Shown: positions 6,704 to 60,136 of the stretch, piece by piece
Position numbering within the stretch: the stretch's first letter is position 1
Layout of the letters: each line of letters opens with the position of its first letter
Assembly: GCF_023343835.1 (NCBI RefSeq)
Contig: NC_064439.1
Span: 30,543,933-30,607,932 of the forward strand
Source of the DNA: Lagopus muta
Taxonomy: Eukaryota; Chordata; Aves; Galliformes; Phasianidae
DNA: 64,000 bases
Direction of reading: 5' to 3'
Position numbers and translations under genes: made by a program
The notes under the pieces: model-generated
Database searches by the model: none
What the model was told of the DNA's origin: nothing
What the model saw: only the letters and a program-made list of their open reading frames with translations

Positions 6704-6711
6704 GATAAATA
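6704..6711 (+). promoter_or_regulatory. TATA-like box of IL6
   Basis: GATAAATA is preceded by a C-rich run and followed about 30 bases later by the expected transcription start. The human gene has AATAAATA in the same place. The short 5'UTR this implies (about 40 bases) suits the gene. Confidence 0.65.
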
Positions 6712-6777
6712 CACGTTCAGGGATGCCCGGAGCTCATTCGATCCGTCAGCCTCCCCGACGAGCAGAGAAGCCGCACC

Positions 6778-9052
6778 ATGAACTTCACCGAGGGCTGCGA
6801 GGCGACGGGACGGCAGCCGGGGAGCGCCGGGAGCCGCCGCCGGAGAGCGCCCCGTCCCGGCCCCGCCGCGCTGCTGCTTCTGCTGCTGTCGCTGCTACTG
6901 CCGCCCGCCGCCGCCGCCCCGCTGCCCGCCGCCGCCGACTCGTCCGGGGAGGCCGGGCTGGAGGAGGAGGCGGGGGCGCGACGGGCGCTGCCCGACTGCG
7001 AGTCGCTGGCCTGGCTGCTGCACAGCCGCGCCGCCCGGCTGCAGGACGAGGTGGGTACGGGGCCGCGGCGGGGGACCTGCGGGCTGCGCCCGGGGCTCGG
7101 ACGCGACGGCAGCTCTCGGTATCTCTCCGCAGATGTGCGAGAAGTTCTCCGTCTGCGAGAACAGCATGGAGATGCTCGTCCGGAACAACCTCAACCTGCC
7201 CAAGGTGACGGAGGAGGACGGCTGCCTGCTCGCCGGCTTCGACGAGGCAAGGAACCGCTCCGCTCCTTCCTTGGGCCGCCTTCGGCCCAATCCGAGCGCC
7301 GCTGAATTCAGCGCAACGTGCCAGGCACTCCGAACTGCTGCTGATGTTCTCACTTCTCTCTCCACAGGAGAAATGCCTGAGGAAGCTCTCTAGCGGCCTG
7401 TTCGCCTTCCAGACCTACCTGGAATTCATTCAAGAAACTTTTGCTAGCGAAAAGCAGAATGTCGAATCGCTGTGCTACGGCACAAAGCACCTGGCGGCCA
7501 CGATCCGGCAGATGGTGAGTCGGTGTGCGCCCCGCACACTGCCGCGGCCGCTGGGACGTGCAGTGATGTGCAGTCAGGACATGCCCGAGGCTGAGCATTT
7601 CCCGCTGTTACTTATCCCATCAGCAGCAGGTGCTGGCTGCCTGTGCTGCTTTCCCTTATGACTAACTTTCAAGTTTTACGAGCTCGTGTTCTGTACTCTT
7701 CTTCCAATTTTCTGTTTCCATTCCTACCTTCCAGACAACAATCAAACTCATCAGACTCCTTTAAAAACAATGTGCTCAGGCACTCTGCTCAGAGCTGCAG
7801 TTTGGTCCCAGCCCCTCAGTGCTGGGACCGCCGTGAAGTACAGTAACTTTGAAACCTCACAGAAATAACTGCAGATACAAACAGCTGATTTTCTTTCAGT
7901 TTGGTGAATGGAATGATATCCACTTCTGACTGCTGTTTTCTGTGCTTTGGAGTGCTTTAAAAGATCATACTTCAAAACTGGCTTCATTCCTGCAGCACTT
8001 AATCACGCCCATAACCCTTCCCTTCCTATAACCCTTCCTACTTTGTCAGCAGTGAAACTGTGGGTGAGTGAGGGCTGCCTAGGTGAGGGGGAACCAAGAA
8101 CTGCAAAGCTCTCTGGCTGTGATTTCCTGCCAGGTGTTTTCAGCACCTGAGAAGGACATTGTGTGCCTTTCCTACCACACTTTTTTGTGTTCCTCATTCT
8201 TTAAGTGAAAGGGAGCTGGACTTCTTTCTTTCACACTGTATTTGCTAAGAATAATAGTCCTGGCTTAAGGCAACTACCGGCTTCAAACTTGATATATTGT
8301 TTGTAGAAGGTTTGTTCAAGGGCTGGGTGAGACTGACCTTCTGTGGAATGACGAAGGCTGAGGCATCAGAGCAGGTGGCACAAAACAGAGCGGGTGCACG
8401 GAGCTCTGTGCTTGTAGGGACTGCTGAGATTTTGAGAAAGTCAGGAGCTATGGCTTGCAGGGTGGAAACTTCTTCATGAAAGCAGTCCGTGTAAGGCTGT
8501 TTGAGATGGGGATGGCAGGTGGAGGCAATCTGCTACTTGTGCTCCAGTCCATCCATTAGCAAGCTCCCTGTTTGGATACCTAACACACTTGTGAGCGAGG
8601 ATGCAGCAGCCAGTATGGTTTAGACCGAGCCACATCCCACGTCCCCATCCAGCACAGGGCAGCAGACACTGCAGGCACTTTAGGCCGGGCCACCCCAACC
8701 CCAGCAAGCGTTAATTGGAATTCTGGAAGAGCAGGGATAGGAGTACCTCAAAACCCAGCACAGAGGTGGGGATGCCAGCAGCTGTACGGAGGGGAGGGCT
8801 ACGAAGCCGGGTGGAACACATTTGTACCTACGGTCTGACTCAACATTCTGTTTCCCACAGGTGATAAATCCCGACGAAGTGATCATCCCAGACTCAGCCA
8901 CCCAGAAATCCCTCCTCGCCAAGCTGAAGTCGGATAAGGCCTGGATAGAGAAAATCACCACGCACCTCATCCTCCGAGACTTTACTTCGTTTATGGAGAA
9001 GACCGTGAGGGCCGTTCGCTATTTGAAAAACACCAGGAGTTTCAGTGCCTGA
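6778..9052 (+). CDS. IL6: Interleukin-6 (four coding exons)
   Basis: Secreted four-helix cytokine that signals through IL-6R and gp130 to JAK/STAT3 and drives acute-phase and B/T-cell responses. Coding exons are 6778-7050, 7133-7246, 7368-7514 and 8861-9052, which join in frame to 241 aa, the length of chicken IL-6. Residues 1-47 form a long Arg-rich then Leu/Ala-rich signal peptide, with cleavage probably near residue 46. Cys93-Cys99 (spacing 6) and Cys122-Cys132 (spacing 10) match the two disulphides of human IL-6; Cys7, Cys74 and Cys165 are extra. Exon 4 carries helix D (THLILRDFTSFMEKTVRAVR), the receptor-binding end. The start is the only ATG just after the TATA box that opens the signal peptide. 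Introns 1 and 3 are GT-AG; intron 2 begins with GC. There are four coding exons where mammals have five, as I recall for chicken too. The copy looks intact. Confidence 0.97.
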
Positions 9053-17484: not shown

Positions 17485-18957
17485 TCATCCCCAAAGCAGA
17501 CTGAAAGGGGAGGGGGGAGGAAATGAAAGTCAGATTTGCAGTACGTTCTTGTTTTTAAATAAGTTTCTCTAAAAAGCAAGTCAGAACAAACAGCCCTATA
17601 AAAATACAGCATAAATGCTACCAAAAAAACCCACGAAAACCAGCCAGAATACATTGCAACAAAGCTACCTACCCAGAAAAAGAACTTGTAAGCCTCAGAC
17701 TGGACCTAAATGCATTTCTGTTACCTGTACGCATACCCTGGTATCAAATGCATACTTTATGCTCTGCAGACACACTCAATACAAGAAAAAAAATCTCAAG
17801 CTGCTAGTGAAACTGAACACAGGAACACTGCCAGCAAACAAACAACTTGAGCAAATGACACCATAAGACAAAAGATTTTACTGAAACTGTAACATGACCT
17901 TGACATTTTTCTCATTCTTTCTACTGTTAGAAGTAGCTCCTTTATATGGTGTGAGGCAAAAATAATTAACATATAATTTTGCAAACAATGCAGACCATCA
18001 ATTATTTGTCTTAGCAGTACCTGGCTCTGTGCTGTTGTCAAATTTCAAGATCATTAAAAGAGCCACATTCCCTTCAAAATCTTAATTTTAAAAGTCTGAC
18101 CCATGGATACGCTTCAACAGAACTCAAACCCCACAAGAATTTATGGCCACTAATGCCAGGACATTGCAGCAGTGACAAGTTGTCCCATAACAAAGAGGCA
18201 ATATGAGCAAATGCATTTTGATCCACTGCAACGACAAATACTGAAGGATGTATCTCTGTATTTAATGCTGTTTTTAAGCAGCTTTACAACCATATTTACA
18301 AAGAGGGAAGGAGAATGGATTTTGGTTAAAACCCCTGTTAGAAGTATAAGTAATTACTTCTAGGTGTAAAAAGACACTTGCATAGAACACCTCTAAAACA
18401 GATTACAAGGGCAGCTGCCACTCAAAAAGGCACAGGAAGTCCTATATATTAAAAAAAAATGCACAGGATTCAGAACAAAACACCAAGGCTCTTACAAGAA
18501 CTTGTGTTTCGCTGTTTTTTCTAGTTTTGATTTTAAAAGAAAAAATAACCTGACCAGCTATACTATCACCCAAGACCAATTAAAACAGTGGATAAAACAC
18601 CTCTTGCTGTTTAGTGTGAACAACCAGAGGTAACACCTAAAACTGTGACCAAGAGAGCTCTGCTTTTGCATGTACATTTGGACACAACACGTACCTCCAG
18701 ATTGTGGGCTCAGGCATTCCTGGATCTGCACCCCTCCTAAAACCTGAACAGAAATAAACATTAGATAAACACACACATGTATGCGTAGACTCCTACACAG
18801 CTAACACAGTATCAGATTATTCCAGTACATTAAACTGAGATGCAAAAGGAGGGGGGAACTGTGATTCACGAAGTTGTAGACTCACCTCAACAGAAAAGTA
18901 ACATTAACCAGGGTTAGAAAGCAGGCAAAATAAATACAAGTGTACCATTTTTAATTT

Positions 18958-18997
<40 letters not shown>

Positions 18998-21136
18998 TTA
19001 CCTGCATCTCTATCTGATTTAAAATTCAGGAACAATTGAATTTGAAGCTGTGAGAGATGATGGTAATTATTTACCCTGAAGATCCCAGCACACACACATG
19101 CATGCACACATACATAACTACCAATGAGATTTTAAATGTTGCTGAGAATGCAACTGAATGAGACAGCACCAGCAGTCACACCTACACCCAGTATAAGCAA
19201 CCACTGTGAGCCTTAGCAGGCAGCATTCTGTAATGATCTTACATTTCTATTTCAGTAACTGTTTATTTAATTCAGGGTGAAAGAATTCTAAATGTTCAAT
19301 TGATTAAACTTAGAACGTTTTGTTCTAACTGCCTTGCAGGGCAAGTTAATTATAAAGAGTTCTAATGACTTAACTACTGATTCACTAAGGCAAACGAATG
19401 CTAGATAAGCAATTAAAGGTTCAGTTTATCAAACAGCTTTCTTGCTGGACTGTAAATTAAGTCTTGAAGCACAATTATACATGATGTATGCTGTTCAACA
19501 TGCTTTCCCACAAATGCTTGATAGAAATGGATGCTATATGGAAAATATATTATTCCTCTCCCTTACAGATTATAAGTAATGACAGCCCACCTAAAACACA
19601 GGCCATGAAGGTTAATGGAAAAACTTCCATTAACGTTGTGGGCACTAGGTTACCTCTTTGAAGATAACCTTGTCAGATTTAGACTATTAAATATTCTGGT
19701 CCGCTGCTTTTTGTGGCCACACTTTCCAATAAAATTGCTTTGAAATACATGAAGTTGTGTTAGCAGTCATACTATGTGTGTGTGTGACACAGATTTGGGA
19801 AACGGTACTAGGGAATAAGGGCCAGAAATATTACATAAGCAATCCAGTTTCACAGAACTGTACTGGCCTAATTTACCTACTTCACACAGGAGCAGTCACT
19901 TCAAAGCAAGCATAAAAACACCTACCAACGAGCTGCAATTGCACAGAGCACACTCCTTTGAATGTGTCCTGAATATCCCACCCCAACCTAGGTCTTTCAC
20001 TGAAACATTCCATTGGTTACAGTGCATTTCATACATATGGGCCAATACAAACTGGGATCAGCAGCACCAAGCACTGCAGAGCCGCTGTAACTGTAATAGA
20101 GGATTCAGTACTACAGACTTCCGAGTCTGTGCCACCTCCAGGGGTCAGGCAAGGATGGCACCTGTATTGGTGCCCCTTCATTAATCACAGCACGAAAATT
20201 GCTCAGGCGGCAATGCGGGCTGCTGGGGGAGCAGCACATTTATCTGTCGGAGGCATAAAACAAAGCTCCTACAACCCAGTTCCTTACAGTTACACAACAG
20301 AAGTACGCGGGCATCCAGGCAGAGGTACAACTGCCCACACAGCACACCAGCAGGTCGTAACACTCGCGTTACGTAAGTGCGCATGGTGCCACAGAGCAGC
20401 TCAGGCTGCCCAGAGAGGTTGTGGATGCCCTGTCCATCCCTGCAGGTGTTCAAGGCCAGGTTGGATGGGGTCCTGGGCAGCCTGGCCTAGCATTAAATGC
20501 GGAGGTTGGTGGCCCTGCCTGTGGTAGGCGGGTTGGAGATTCGTGATTCAGGAGGCTCGTTCCAACCCTGGCCATCCTGTGATCCCTCCCTAAAGGCGGA
20601 GCCCTCGCAAACCCCCGCCGGATCGAAGCAGGTCGCGAAACGCTGCGGGAATCCCCGCCCCCAAACCCATCAATTTTAAAATAATCAATAAACTAAGGAT
20701 GGGAACGCAATATCCTAACGTTGCCTAACGCGGCAGAGTTCAAAGCGACCTTCTGTACCAGTTAAAGCCCGCCGGCCATCCATCAGCCCGCCGGCCCCCC
20801 ACACCAACCACCCCCCCTTCCCCCCCGCTTCTCAGCGGCGCATGCGCGGACAGCACAGCGCGGGGGAGGTTCCCCCGCCCCCCCCCCGCGCCCTCACGCG
20901 TCCCCCCGCACCCCCTCCCTCCCCACGCCCGCTCGCCCCCGGCCGCCCCGACCTCGTTCCCCGCCCCGGGACCGGGGCCGGCCCGCAGCCTTGCAGTGCG
21001 GGCCGCTGCACGCCGGCGCCCGCCGTCACTGACCTAGGTAGAGCACGACCGGGATGAAGCCCCAGCGGATGGCGAACTGACCGCCCTTAAAGAGCTGCTG
21101 CAGCCGCTGCTTGGCCTCCTTGCTGAGCTTCGGCAT
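17485..21136 (-). CDS. TOMM7: TOM7, translocase of outer mitochondrial membrane (three coding exons)
   Basis: Small tail-anchored subunit of the TOM complex in the mitochondrial outer membrane; it tunes assembly of the Tom40 pore and supports PINK1 retention. Coding exons on the minus strand are 21136-21034 (103 bases), 18743-18695 (49) and 17500-17485 (16), giving 55 aa, the same length as human. Exon 1 encodes MPKLSKEAKQRLQQLFKGGQ and the hydrophobic FAIRWGFIPVVLYL membrane segment. Exon 2 gives FRRGADPGMPEPTIW and the tiny exon 3 SLLWG. All splice sites are GT-AG. Against human TOM7 as I recall it, residue 2 is Pro instead of Val, and IW replaces VL near the end. The start is the ATG inside a CpG island with no earlier in-frame alternative. 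Intron 1 holds a CR1 tail and a 32-base T run. Confidence 0.96.
18960..18991. repeat. Poly(T) run of 32 bases
   Basis: This pure T run lies in TOMM7 intron 1 (poly(A) in the sense of the gene). It has no attached SINE or LINE that I can see, so it is probably a simple length-variable repeat. Confidence 0.9.
20388..20583 (+). mobile_element. CR1 LINE 3' end in TOMM7 intron 1
   Basis: Typical CR1 words are CTGCCCAGAGAGGTTGTGGA and GTTCAAGGCCAGGTTGGATG, ending at CCATCCTGTGAT. It lies antisense to TOMM7, just outside the CpG island, and is 5'-truncated. Confidence 0.92.
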
Positions 21137-21600
21137 GCCGGCGGCGGGGAGAGAGAGGAGCGGCCCGCCCGCGGACGTCACTCGGCTGCGGTGGGCGGCG
21201 CTCCGGGGGCCCTTCCGGGGGCGGTGAGCAGGGGTTCGTTCGGGGGCGGAGGCCGTGGGCCGCCGGCCGCCCTCGTTTGTCCGCGGGCCGTTCTTGCGCC
21301 CCGACCTGCCTCTGCGCGCCGCTCTCTGCCGAGGCTGCGGGTAAGTGAAGGGCAGAGATGGAGCGCCGAGAGCAGCGCTTCCGGGTGACGCCGAAAATGG
21401 CATTCGCGTTGCGCTGTCCCAGCGTGCGCCGTGTCTCACGTGGCCCGCTGCCTCTGGCTGCCGCGGCGGACGCGGCGCTGCGGCTGTTCGGTGCTGCCTG
21501 GGGAGCAGCACGGTCGGGAGCGGCGGGCTGTGCCAGGGCTGCTCCCAAAGCTGGGAGGGGATCCAGTTGTGTGTGGAAACAGGGGGGGATGGGGGGAGAA
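20580..21600. promoter_or_regulatory. CpG island, TOMM7 promoter, probably bidirectional
   Basis: About 1 kb is very rich in G+C and CpG, against an A/T-rich background. TOMM7 exon 1 (minus) lies inside it. On the plus strand a strong splice donor, GCGG|GTAAGTG, lies at 21340/21341, about 200 bases from the TOMM7 start, as expected for a divergent transcript. No TATA box is evident, as is usual for housekeeping genes. Confidence 0.8.
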
Positions 21601-21654
21601 TATCCTAGAGGATAAATCACAGCTTGTGGCACTGCAGACATCCACATAGTTCCT

Positions 21655-21856
21655 GATAGAATCATTAGCGCTGGAAAAGACCACCGAGATCCTCCAGTCC
21701 AACCGCCAACCCATCCCCACTGCCCGTGTCCTTCAGTGCTACATCCACGCGCTTCCTGAACACCTCCAGGGCTGCTGGCTCCCCCACCTCCCTGGGCAGC
21801 CCATTCCAGGGCATCACCATTCCTTATGAAAATATTTTTGCCTAATTTCCAACCTG
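21655..21856 (-). mobile_element. CR1 LINE 3' end, minus orientation
   Basis: It starts with a degraded tail (GATAGAATCATTAGCG), then GGAAAAGACCACCGAGATCC and CCTCCAGGGCTGCTGGCTCC, and ends near AATTTCCAACCTG. It forms the outer edge of the CpG island and adds CpG sites of its own. Confidence 0.92.
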
Positions 21857-24094
21857 ATTCGTTTATAATCGCAGTTTACCAGCCAGATGCAGTTATAAAG
21901 TTCTGTATATGTTACATGTTGGTTTGCTTAAGGCAACAGATGGCTTGCAGTTCAGCAGCTCACTTGTCGCATTAACAAAAGGGCAGTGCTTTTCGATTAA
22001 AAAATAATTCAAATCCAGGATCATAATAAATATCACTTACATAGCTTTTTCTATATTTATTCTTCCAGTACACAGATGCATATGCTGCCTGTAAGAGATG
22101 ATGAAGATACAAGTTCATACTTTGCTCCTTGCTTCTCAGATATGGACGGGTGACAATCTACAAGCCACATGAGTGATCCTCAGCTGCCTTGCCACTCTCT
22201 ACTAGTAATCAAAGTGTGGGGGACACAGAAGTGTCTTGGTGATGGGATGACAAACCTGCTGTATGTCAGGGTATAGAATGCACAAACAGCCTTTGTTCAT
22301 GAAATCCAGTGCACGTGTACTCACCTATGCATTGAACAGGAGAGGAAAAGTCAGTATCACATGGTAATATATCTAATGATGTCTAACAGGTAAAGCTGAG
22401 GCTTGGAGTCCATGAGTAGCTTCATTGTCAGCTGAACAGCTTATCCCTGTTGGGGTTAGGCAGCATTGTCATGGTTCAGTAGGTGAACATCAGTATGAAG
22501 GGGACTGTGAGTCTACATGTTCTCCAAAAAAGAGTATGCCTTCATATGTTCTCAGACACTAGGAACCAACAAAACATTCTCTAAATAATGCCAGCCATGG
22601 AACTTGTTGTGTCGATTGACTCTGTTAGTTATGCTTGATGAGGATTGCCAACAACCAATTCTTTCTGCAGCAGGTGGGCTGCTGGTGTAGGTAGAAAAAT
22701 ACTGGTAATTCATACTTCACTGCACTTCAAAAAGACAAATTTTCTCAATATAATGTTCCTGTCAGAGCTTTATCCAGTTGTTAAGCAAACAGATTTTGTT
22801 ATTGTTAGCAGATTAATGAGGCGCTTTCAGTAACAAATCCAGAATTTATGGAACATATTAATGAAGATTTTTCTGTGGCAATCGTAGGCAGCTAATAACA
22901 CAGACACCATAGAAGGCGGAACTGCTTCTGAAATGTTCTGTCAGTTGTTTTTACTAGCTAGTATTAAAGGTTATTTTGTACTTACCAAAGTGGTCACGCA
23001 TTCCTGCTTTGTCACATCTAGCGCGGTAGTTCTGCATCAGCGTGTTGCTGTATTTCCATTCCTTAAATTCAGTACTTTATGCCTACTGTTACTTTTTTAT
23101 TATTATTATCTTTTATTAAAGCTGGAAATTTGAAGTCAGTAATGACTGCTCATGTTCAACTCAGAAGTGGCATCTTCCCTCCCAAGAACAGCTTTTATAA
23201 AATACTCTAAAAGATCGTGAATCCTGTTGTACCATGCCATGTGTCAGCTCCTTTGTGACTGCCATACCCATTGCATAGCACTAACAAATTCAGATCTTTC
23301 CACTTCTTGCCTCTAAGGAGATGTTTTCTTCAATTTTAGGTAATTGTAGTGCAAGTAGGATTCATAAGGTTGAGTGTACTAAATAATTGATCCAAATGAT
23401 TTAACAGCTCTGTCTTCTTCAGGTATAAACCTGTTTAACTGTCTCTAGTTACATCGGTATGGATGTTCTTGAGAAAGGGTATTCCTAAAAATGTGCCATC
23501 TGTGCTCCTTCTTCCATCCTTTCCTTCACATATCAAGTCAAGGAATTATTTTCAGAGAACGGGAACTTTCCTTGATAGCTCTCATTTCTTGCATCTGCAG
23601 TGTGTTATGACTGGACATCACATTTTACTTTATTATGATAATTAAGCTGTCTATTGTGCCCTTGTAAGGAAGGTCCTTTTCTTCCATTCCATTTTAATAT
23701 TCATTTAATACATCCCAGCTACTCTGCAGTACCATTGGTCTAGGAAATGCAGATTTTCAGTTTGCAGAGACCACGTTTTGCAGAGATAAATAGAAATGGA
23801 AAGCACTACTGCAGCCAAAAAGAACTAAGGCTATGCGATTGTGCTGCTTGGGAAATGCCAGAATTCTGTGACATCTCATTTTCTCTTGATAGTTGTAAAA
23901 GCAATAATACTTGGGCTTAAATATGTTTGGGTTTCTTAATTTAGCATATTTTCAAAACATATTTGAAATGCAGAGCAGAGATGCATATAAATTTTTTTTC
24001 TGTCTGGATTACTGTCTCTTTCATATGATTTTCTGTGTGATCCACCATTGGCTGTACTCTGGCCACTGTATGGTATTGGATAGCTGCCTTGCAC

Positions 24095-24227
24095 ACAGAT
24101 CTCAACAAATGAAGGGGCTGACAATAATCAACCTCATGAAGTTTAACAAGAGCAAGTGCTTCATTCTGTACCTGGGCTGGGGCAATCCTGGCTGTACATG
24201 CAGACTTGGGAACAAGAGGATTGAGGT
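24095..24227 (+). mobile_element. CR1 LINE internal fragment (ORF2 end)
   Basis: The match covers CAACCTCATGAAGTTTAACA through CTGGGCTGGGGCAATCCTGG to AACAAGAGGATTGAG, the last coding part of CR1 ORF2. Both ends are missing and it is more diverged than its neighbours. It ends about 50 bases before the candidate exon at 24279. Confidence 0.8.
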
Positions 24228-24278
24228 TTAATATGGAATTGAGAGCAAACACAATAATGATATTATTTTCCATTTCAG

Positions 24279-24501
24279 CTCCTGAAGCCAGTGAAGGAGA
24301 AACAGCAGTCTGAGATGAAACAACATTCAACAAAACCTCATCAAATGCTTTCAGAGGTCTCTGAAAAAAAAGTATTGTTGTGCTTAAAAATAGAATATTA
24401 TCTGCTACTCAACTTTATTTTCATTCAGAACCTGACTGTCCCATTCTCCTCATTTTCATTTAAGAATGAAAATGTTGCATTAAAGATACTGCTACCTTTC
24501 T
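24279..24501 (+). ncRNA. Candidate exon of a plus-strand snoRNA host transcript
   Basis: The stretch is bounded by a good acceptor (TATTTTCCATTTCAG, ending at 24278) and a near-perfect donor (GTAAGT at 24502-24507). The next acceptor is a T-rich tract ending in AG at 24718-24719. The intron so defined (24502-24719, 218 bases) contains the snoRNA. The exon has no conserved-looking protein. The first exon may lie in the CpG island ending at 21340. This is inferred from splice signals only. Confidence 0.35.
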
Positions 24502-24560
24502 GTAAGTGGTTACTCTAAAAACATCACAGTCCTTATATGCACATTGCTGTGATTGCAGTA

Positions 24561-24652
24561 TTTGGCCAGGGATGAAAACAATCATCTGATTACTTGCATA
24601 CTTACAGTGATATGCAGAAGTCTGATGGATTAAAGGATTTTCTGAGGCCAAA
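24561..24652 (+). ncRNA. SNORD93: Box C/D snoRNA, SNORD93-like
   Basis: The 92-base unit is closed by a 7-bp terminal stem, TTTGGCC (24561-24567) with GGCCAAA (24646-24652). Box C is GGGATGA at 24569-24575 (one base from RTGATGA) and box D is CTGA at 24642-24645. The inner boxes are D' CTGA at 24586-24589 and C' GTGATAT at 24607-24613. The guide before box D, TTAAAGGATTT, is complementary over 11 bases to AAATCCTTTAA of 18S rRNA, the region containing human A576, which SNORD93 is listed as guiding to 2'-O-methylation. The 3' half resembles human SNORD93 as I recall it, and human SNORD93 also lies between TOMM7 and FAM126A. The snoRNA ends 67 bases before an acceptor AG, the usual distance for intronic C/D snoRNAs. 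Confidence 0.85.
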
Positions 24653-24727
24653 ACTAATATCTGTATTCTCTCATTCTTTGTTTTTAAATTAACTTTTGGG
24701 TTTTTGTTTTGTTTTAAAGCATCTGAG

Positions 24728-26890
24728 GAGAGCAACTGTCAATGGCTTTAGAAAGATTTTCCTCAAAAAACATTTGAATGCATACTTTCTAATTGTCAAC
24801 CAATCTCATCTAGAGATAAAATCTGAAAAGATTTTATAGGATTTAAAAGGTCTGCCTGTTTTAGGCAGATTCTTACTATGATGGGAACAAATGAGGAAAA
24901 GAATGATGATATTTCTACAACAGTCTTTGCTCTTACTGTCTTTGTTTATACCAATTCCAACCTTAGTACATTGAATTAAGGTTAGGCAACCTTAAAACAG
25001 AGAATGTAAGGTCTTTATCATAGTTTACACAAAAATGGATATGAAAATGAGAACATGGATGTGGAGCATTTGAAAAATAAGAATTGTAATTAAAATTCAT
25101 ATACAACCTTTTTTTAGAGTATCCGCTCTCAGCATTGACATACTGACAGCCTGAGACACTTACCTGCAGTGTTCCTTTGGACTCTCTCCAGTAATGCATA
25201 GAGCACTGTCACCATGTGGGAAAATACTCATCGGTGTTTCAGTGTGGCATTGCTGTTGCTTTTCACTTGGGATTACTAAAAAGCTCCTATAGTTGATCTA
25301 CAAGGGCAAAATTGAGACGTTCTGGATACTGGGGTTATTTTTTCAAGGAGGGTGATTTGTAGCAGCAGTGCATATGGCACTAATCAATGAGAGTTGAGAA
25401 GACTTTGGCCTAGCATCCTGCCCAAAGAAGAAGAAAAGAGGTTACAAGAGATTTGCTATGTTCCTTATCATTGCTTCATATGAAACAATATACATACTCC
25501 TGAAGTTTTTATTTTGAATCATTTCTGCAATAATTTTATCAGGTGCATAGGATATTCAGGCAACTTTTGAAAATTCCTTATGTTCTGCGTTATAAAGTCT
25601 GTTGTCCATACTTGGCACAGGCTACAAATTTGACCCTCATTTTCAAGCATTTAAAGGCCCAAAATAAAATTATCGTTCTGTAACACTTTTTTTTTTCTTA
25701 CATTTATTCAAGTTTGCATTAACTATATATCCAGCAAAATTGCATTTTACTCCTTCATTTTAGGAGTAGCAGTCTTTAAGTAGCAGTCACAGGAGATTAA
25801 ATGCAGTTCAGCATAATGAAGCATGAAGATGACAAGAAAAATGAACCAGAGGTGCCTTATCTCCCAGTTCATAGCAGTACAAATTTTATATTCCAGACAC
25901 GAATTCCACCTTGGGATTGAAATCGTACTGTGTGAGTCTGTGTAAGTATTATTTTCCAATTACCTTCCTGCTTTAAATGTAGAAAAGAAAACGAGTCCTC
26001 CTGAATTAAGAGATGTGTTAATTGCATGTGGGATTTGTGATGGAAAGTTCTCTCTAAAATAAACAGTAATAGAAGTTGTTCTTTCACCTATCAGGAGGAA
26101 AACCTGCTTCTAGTGAGAGAATGCTAGACTGGACTGACATTGGTCTCTTTTATGACATTATTACTGGACTGACATATATAGCACAGTATATTAGAACTGT
26201 TAATTGTATCATAGCATAATATTTTTCTGTAGTTTTTCTGTTAAATCCCTTAAAAACCACGTGCAGAAAAGTACTTCTTATGTGTATGTTAGTTTTGGCA
26301 ACTGTCTGGTCTGAATGAAATGCTGGTGGGCTTTTAAAAGCCTGAAGAACAGGAATCAGGCAGTGAGCCTACATGAGCCTTAAAAAAAAAAAAAAAAAAA
26401 AAGATATTTACAAAGTATTTATCTATTATAAAAAATGAAAAAATAGAAGTTGTCTAAAGGTTTCAATTAATAAACTGTCAGCCTCTATGAATTTAGTTCC
26501 CCTTCTTCGTTACATAAATATTAATTCAAATATTATTAGCAGTGTTTCCTTAATACCAGTGGAGGGCAGACTTGAACTGGAAACTCTTTTTCTGCTTTGA
26601 TTTCCTGAAATTAAAATACAAGGTAGTTCCTCAGGCTCAGAGCTGATGGCAGTCTCATCACTTCTCCACGATTCTAATTACTCTTGCACTGGGTAAAAGC
26701 TTCCTTACAATTGCTGTTTGACAAAATGAGTGTTTTGCTATGTCACAGAAAAGAAATGGTGAATGTTTAGATAAAAACAATCATGTGAAAGTGGATGAGT
26801 CAGTTTATTAGCAGCTGCGTGATATTCCCCAGGGAGGATCCACACTGCTAAGCAATTAATCATGTATATCTTAAAATGGCTTTTAAAAGT
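24728..26890. other. Intergenic, nothing recognised
   Basis: A/T-rich DNA after the snoRNA locus. It holds a 21-base A run at 26382-26402. I see no supported exon or mobile element. Confidence 0.45.

Positions 26891-41454: not shown

Positions 41455-60136
<18,682 letters not shown>

Follow-up and report, generated by a model that had tools for sequence, protein, structure and literature searches.

A very probable bird SNORD93 between TOMM7 and HYCC1, with a guide shifted by one base towards box D relative to the Rfam consensus

Gene order around the snoRNA unit

The window (the whole stretch of Lagopus muta DNA that was analyzed, 64 kb in length, with positions counted from its first letter) carries a 92-base box C/D snoRNA unit at 24561-24652 on the plus strand, flanked by TOMM7 and HYCC1 on the minus strand. 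TOMM7 was identified by a match to PF08038 at about 21032-21112. HYCC1 was called from stretches matching Hyccin (PF09790), the best of each frame lying within about 47657-53849. A further TOMM7-like exon is presumably located near 18720, as judged from a sequence motif. No Pfam match was obtained for two large minus-strand frames at 41455-42039 and 42875-43234; we take them to resemble hyccin C-terminal exons.

Elsewhere in the window, an IL6 exon was recognized by PF00489 near 8858-9022 (+). The frame at 6709-7305, which gave no Pfam match, presumably resembles an earlier IL6 exon. Similarly, an open frame at 47842-48153 (+) was without Pfam match and is assumed by us to resemble the reverse-transcriptase end of a CR1 element. 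This frame adjoins the opposite-strand Hyccin stretch 47657-47827, starting 15 bases beyond it.

Articles are cited by their PMC accession. In human and mouse, the SNHG26 locus holds SNORD93 and lies between TOMM7 and FAM126A, now HYCC1 (PMC11452505). As the unit described here occupies the same interval, the locus is regarded as orthologous. The initial annotation had placed the snoRNA between TOMM7 and HYCC1 as in human, which agrees with the PF08038 and PF09790 matches and with PMC11452505.

Architecture and family assignment

The unit has the features of a box C/D snoRNA, namely boxes C and D, a closing stem, and internal C' and D' boxes. Read directly, TTTGGCC (24561-24567) pairs with GGCCAAA (24646-24652) in a perfect closing stem of 7 bp, and box D (CTGA) is found at 24642-24645. 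Following alignment to RF00606, the SNORD93 family of Rfam, and direct reading, box C was assigned to 24569-24575 (GGGATGA, compared with AGGAUGA in the Rfam consensus), box D' to 24586-24589 (CTGA), and a C'-like box to 24622-24628 (CTGATGG), all on the plus strand. Four boxes, a 7-bp stem, an 11-base match to 18S rRNA and a unit length of 92 bases had been listed in the initial annotation, and each of these was recovered letter by letter.

Insertions in the RF00606 alignment fall in the spacer between D' and C' (24590-24621, +), where they may form a stem-loop (TGCATA/TATGCA). Folded alone, the segment 24587-24626 was not significant (z = −0.97, with 31 of 200 shuffles as good). The fold of 24560-24653, on the other hand, was better than that of shuffled sequences (z = −3.03, 1 of 200 shuffles as good).

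The 64-kb window was scanned against 4227 Rfam families using cmscan. RF00606 matched at 24563-24650 (+) with 62.9 bits (E = 1.6e-9) and at full length, 88 bases being placed on model positions 1-74 of 74. The curated gathering cut-off of this family is 60 bits, so that the margin amounts to just 2.9 bits; RF00606 was the sole family to reach its gathering score in the window. Six other Rfam matches, with E values from 0.72 to 4.7, all stayed under the gathering score and were taken as chance. The 5' part of human SNORD93, obtained as the reverse complement of an oligonucleotide printed in PMC5503938, was aligned with the unit from box C to box D', and 22 of 29 columns were identical.

A SNORD93-like box C/D snoRNA had been proposed earlier, together with a search of the Rfam covariance models; this search has now been run, and the proposal is borne out by a match above the gathering score (62.9 versus 60 bits). 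Judged from its sequence, the element very probably represents, in a bird, the known small RNA SNORD93, which guides the marking of a single rRNA base. It is ordinary apart from its guide register. As annotation the result is routine, since earlier work on bird genomes already reports SNORD93 (PMC4378963). That the motifs came together by chance, with no snoRNA at this position, is extremely improbable: the modest margin above the gathering score is the single point in its favor, and it is set against an E value of 1.6e-9 across the window and all 4227 families, obtained at the syntenic place.

According to both the Rfam scan and a self-match, the window holds one copy of SNORD93. Retrocopy origin was considered and rejected. 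A second copy was not present in the window, where the next best self-match comprised 12 bases (E = 0.26). The 40 bases preceding the unit and the 60 bases following it share no direct repeat of 6-14 bases with exact identity, and no run of more than three A residues occurred in the 40 bases following it. With flanking repeats, A-tail and second copy all lacking in the window, there is no sign of a retrocopy.

The segment from guide to box D was also searched for in two contig collections. In the viral contigs, neither the exact segment nor a version with variable spacer gave a single match. In the genome contigs, the variable-spacer search returned seven stretches, all titled bacterial. These were taken as chance, because about 7.5 matches are expected from the size of the collection if all bases are equally frequent, and the seven loci, when run through cmscan, yielded no snoRNA, the single match being a tRNA.

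Candidate host intron and exons

Direct reading and splice-site scores point to a putative host intron at 24502-24719 (+), GTAAGT...TTTTAAAG, in which GTAAGT begins at 24502, the AG ends at 24719, and 67 bases separate the unit from the acceptor. A possible branch point, ATTAAC (24688-24693, +), would have its branch A at 24692, 40 bases past the unit; the optimum distance between snoRNA and branch point is given as about 50 bases (PMC8162545). Both the 67-base spacing and this candidate branch point had been proposed before, and the letters concerned are found at the stated places.

Splice sites were scored with approximate position weights. On this scale the donor scored 5.72, a value equaled or exceeded by 157 of 3030 plus-strand GT sites, and the acceptor 6.20, equaled or exceeded by 306 of 4676 AG sites. 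At the donor, positions −1 and −2 are occupied by T and C, and at the acceptor, position −3 is A. The intron had been described as short and well-formed; its signals are indeed found where they had been placed, but "well-formed" is too strong for splice sites with middling scores.

For comparison, 20,000 random 92-base units were drawn. A comparable donor was found 10-150 bases upstream of 29% of these, a comparable acceptor 50-90 bases downstream of 18%, and a pair in range for 5.1%. Pairs this good around random units leave some room for a snoRNA transcribed from its own promoter, or released from unspliced intergenic transcription, instead of being processed from 24502-24719; moreover, human SNORD93 was once annotated as intergenic and later reannotated as intronic (PMC3349704). 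We consider such an origin unlikely. GTAAGT occurs just 18 times on the plus strand of the 64 kb, and the acceptor is preceded by an AG-free run of 72 bases; counting this site, 5 of 4676 AG sites combine a run at least as long with an equal or higher acceptor score. The snoRNA also lies close to the optimum distance from the branch point. Intron 24502-24719 is a plausible candidate host for the snoRNA.

Upstream of the donor, a candidate exon of 73 bases (24429-24501, +) would follow an acceptor ending at 24428 (score 9.5), and an alternative exon of 223 bases (24279-24501, +) would follow an acceptor ending at 24278 (score 9.1). In the longer of the two, one frame is open for 74 codons; the sequence is AT-rich and the frame probably meaningless. 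Among the eight donors listed for 20900-26500, the highest score (10.4) belonged to CGG/GTAAGT, with its GTAAGT at 21341-21346 (+). This donor lies in a CpG-rich stretch around TOMM7 exon 1, the CpG observed/expected ratio being 0.84-1.19 in five 200-base steps over 20601-21600. It is a speculative possibility that the donor at 21341 could end a first host exon transcribed from a promoter divergent from TOMM7.

Guide register and comparison with known systems

The antisense element TTAAAGGATTT (24630-24640, +) comprises 11 bases complementary to 18S rRNA 574-584, around A576. Pairing was computed on an assumed 18S fragment, the numbering of which was fixed on an assumed A590; the Rfam consensus lands exactly on A576, which serves as a check on both. 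A576 is the known human target of SNORD93 (PMC9941101, PMC9696202). According to the N+5 rule, modification falls on the base opposite the fifth guide nucleotide, counted upstream from box D (PMC8162545, PMC4053766), and on the assumed 18S fragment it is A576 that the Rfam consensus faces in this manner.

Here, box D (CTGA) is preceded by TTTT, versus UUUAC before CUGA in the consensus. One base has been lost relative to the consensus in the RF00606 alignment, and the guide lies one base nearer box D. Counted from box D, the N+5 position is A24637, opposite U577 of the assumed 18S fragment, and A576 is faced by T24638 at N+4 instead of by the fifth base. Uninterrupted pairing extends over 11 bases (574-584), compared with 13 (573-585) in the consensus. 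The register shift is a fact of the sequence for this window against the Rfam consensus; the initial annotation had left the distance from guide to box D unmeasured and the shift had been overlooked. Since facing A576 at N+5 belongs to the function of SNORD93 in human and is not an Rfam criterion, the N+4 position weakens the claim of A576 modification and does not weaken SNORD93 orthology. For the D' guide, pairing with the assumed 18S fragment, the target sequence covered, did not exceed a run of 4 bases, and no D' target is therefore proposed.

The preferred reading, to which we assign a probability of about 0.93, is an avian SNORD93 orthologue in syntenic position, with one copy in the window, likely derived from a host intron, and carrying a D-box guide on 18S 574-584. 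Boxes, closing stem, family match, synteny and guide complementarity are established at the level of sequence. Transcription, intron, RNP assembly and methylation are what we infer from these features. In short, the unit would most likely be transcribed on the plus strand within a non-coding host gene at the SNHG26 position, and intron 24502-24719 would be spliced from the transcript with the snoRNA inside. SNU13, NOP58, NOP56 and fibrillarin would assemble on the boxes, after which trimming of the debranched intron would release the snoRNA and the D-box guide would pair with 18S 574-584. With the guide shifted by one base towards box D, a strict N+5 rule would place the predicted methylation on U577 and not on A576. 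The register shift may thus move the mark to the neighboring base; it may be shared across a lineage, confined to this genome, or of no effect.

The shift would be without consequence if the guide still directed methylation of A576 from N+4. This is a serious possibility, somewhat short of even odds: pairing across A576 is intact, with T24638 opposite it, and against this stands the N+5 position, which is given as the rule in PMC8162545 and PMC4053766. Partial methylation of Am576 has been observed in human cell lines and differs between them, with scores of 0.57 in HEK293T and 0.19 in SH-SY5Y (PMC9941101). Alternatively, the lost base may have re-aimed SNORD93 in this species or, perhaps, across birds more broadly, so that U577 is methylated in place of Am576 or the A576 mark has been lost. 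We regard this as tentative and rather doubtful. If true, nature would here have retargeted an rRNA modification of a vertebrate by one base. A lineage with a one-base guide offset would provide a natural test of how strict the N+5 rule is and how much the exact base matters.

Position A551 of chicken 18S rRNA, the U62 site, is taken by us to correspond to human A590; with an offset of 39, U577 would be chicken U538. In the survey of chicken snoRNAs by Shao et al. (2009), which reported 83 guide C/D snoRNAs and 10 orphans, the 18S targets run from A473 to A551 with none between; its Table 1 names no guide for the A576 equivalent, and HBII-336 does not appear in the main text (PMC2653536). This gap fits a register outside the search rule, and fits a simple miss as well; retargeting, if real, could explain it. 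Four chicken orphans had no named mammalian homologue, two located in DKC1, one in MED24, and the fourth being GGoCD4 (108 nt, host mRNA BX932828; PMC2653536). GGoCD4 could be SNORD93.

The same gap in the survey table (PMC2653536), together with the register shift and an Rfam score near the cut-off, would agree with a SNORD93 decaying in place as a pseudogene, in which the lost base and the spacer insertion mark lost function and the RNA is either unmade or non-guiding. We judge this quite unlikely, given that no box has been lost, that the 7-bp stem is still perfect and the guide still pairs over 11 bases, and that the fold is better than that of shuffled sequences (z = −3.03).

Within the literature covered on SNORD93, Am576 and chicken snoRNAs, no description of the register shift was found. 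A review on the natural diversity of rRNA methylation (PMC8393311) makes no mention of chicken or bird, and SNORD93 is not named in the main text of PMC12309372.

Among known systems, the unit resembles SNORD93 (HBII-336, RF00606) in its boxes, closing stem, guide core TTAAAGGATTT and place between TOMM7 and HYCC1 (FAM126A). It differs from the SNORD93 Rfam consensus in having the guide one base closer to box D, with 11 instead of 13 paired bases, and in its longer D'-C' spacer. The SNHG26 host gene offers a likeness in occupying the same interval, the spliced non-coding host being a putative one here; even between human and mouse, the SNHG26 RNAs have little sequence similarity (PMC11452505). 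Finally, in contrast to the SNORD93 expansion of the tinamou, with 92 copies (PMC4378963), a single copy is found here within the 64-kb window.
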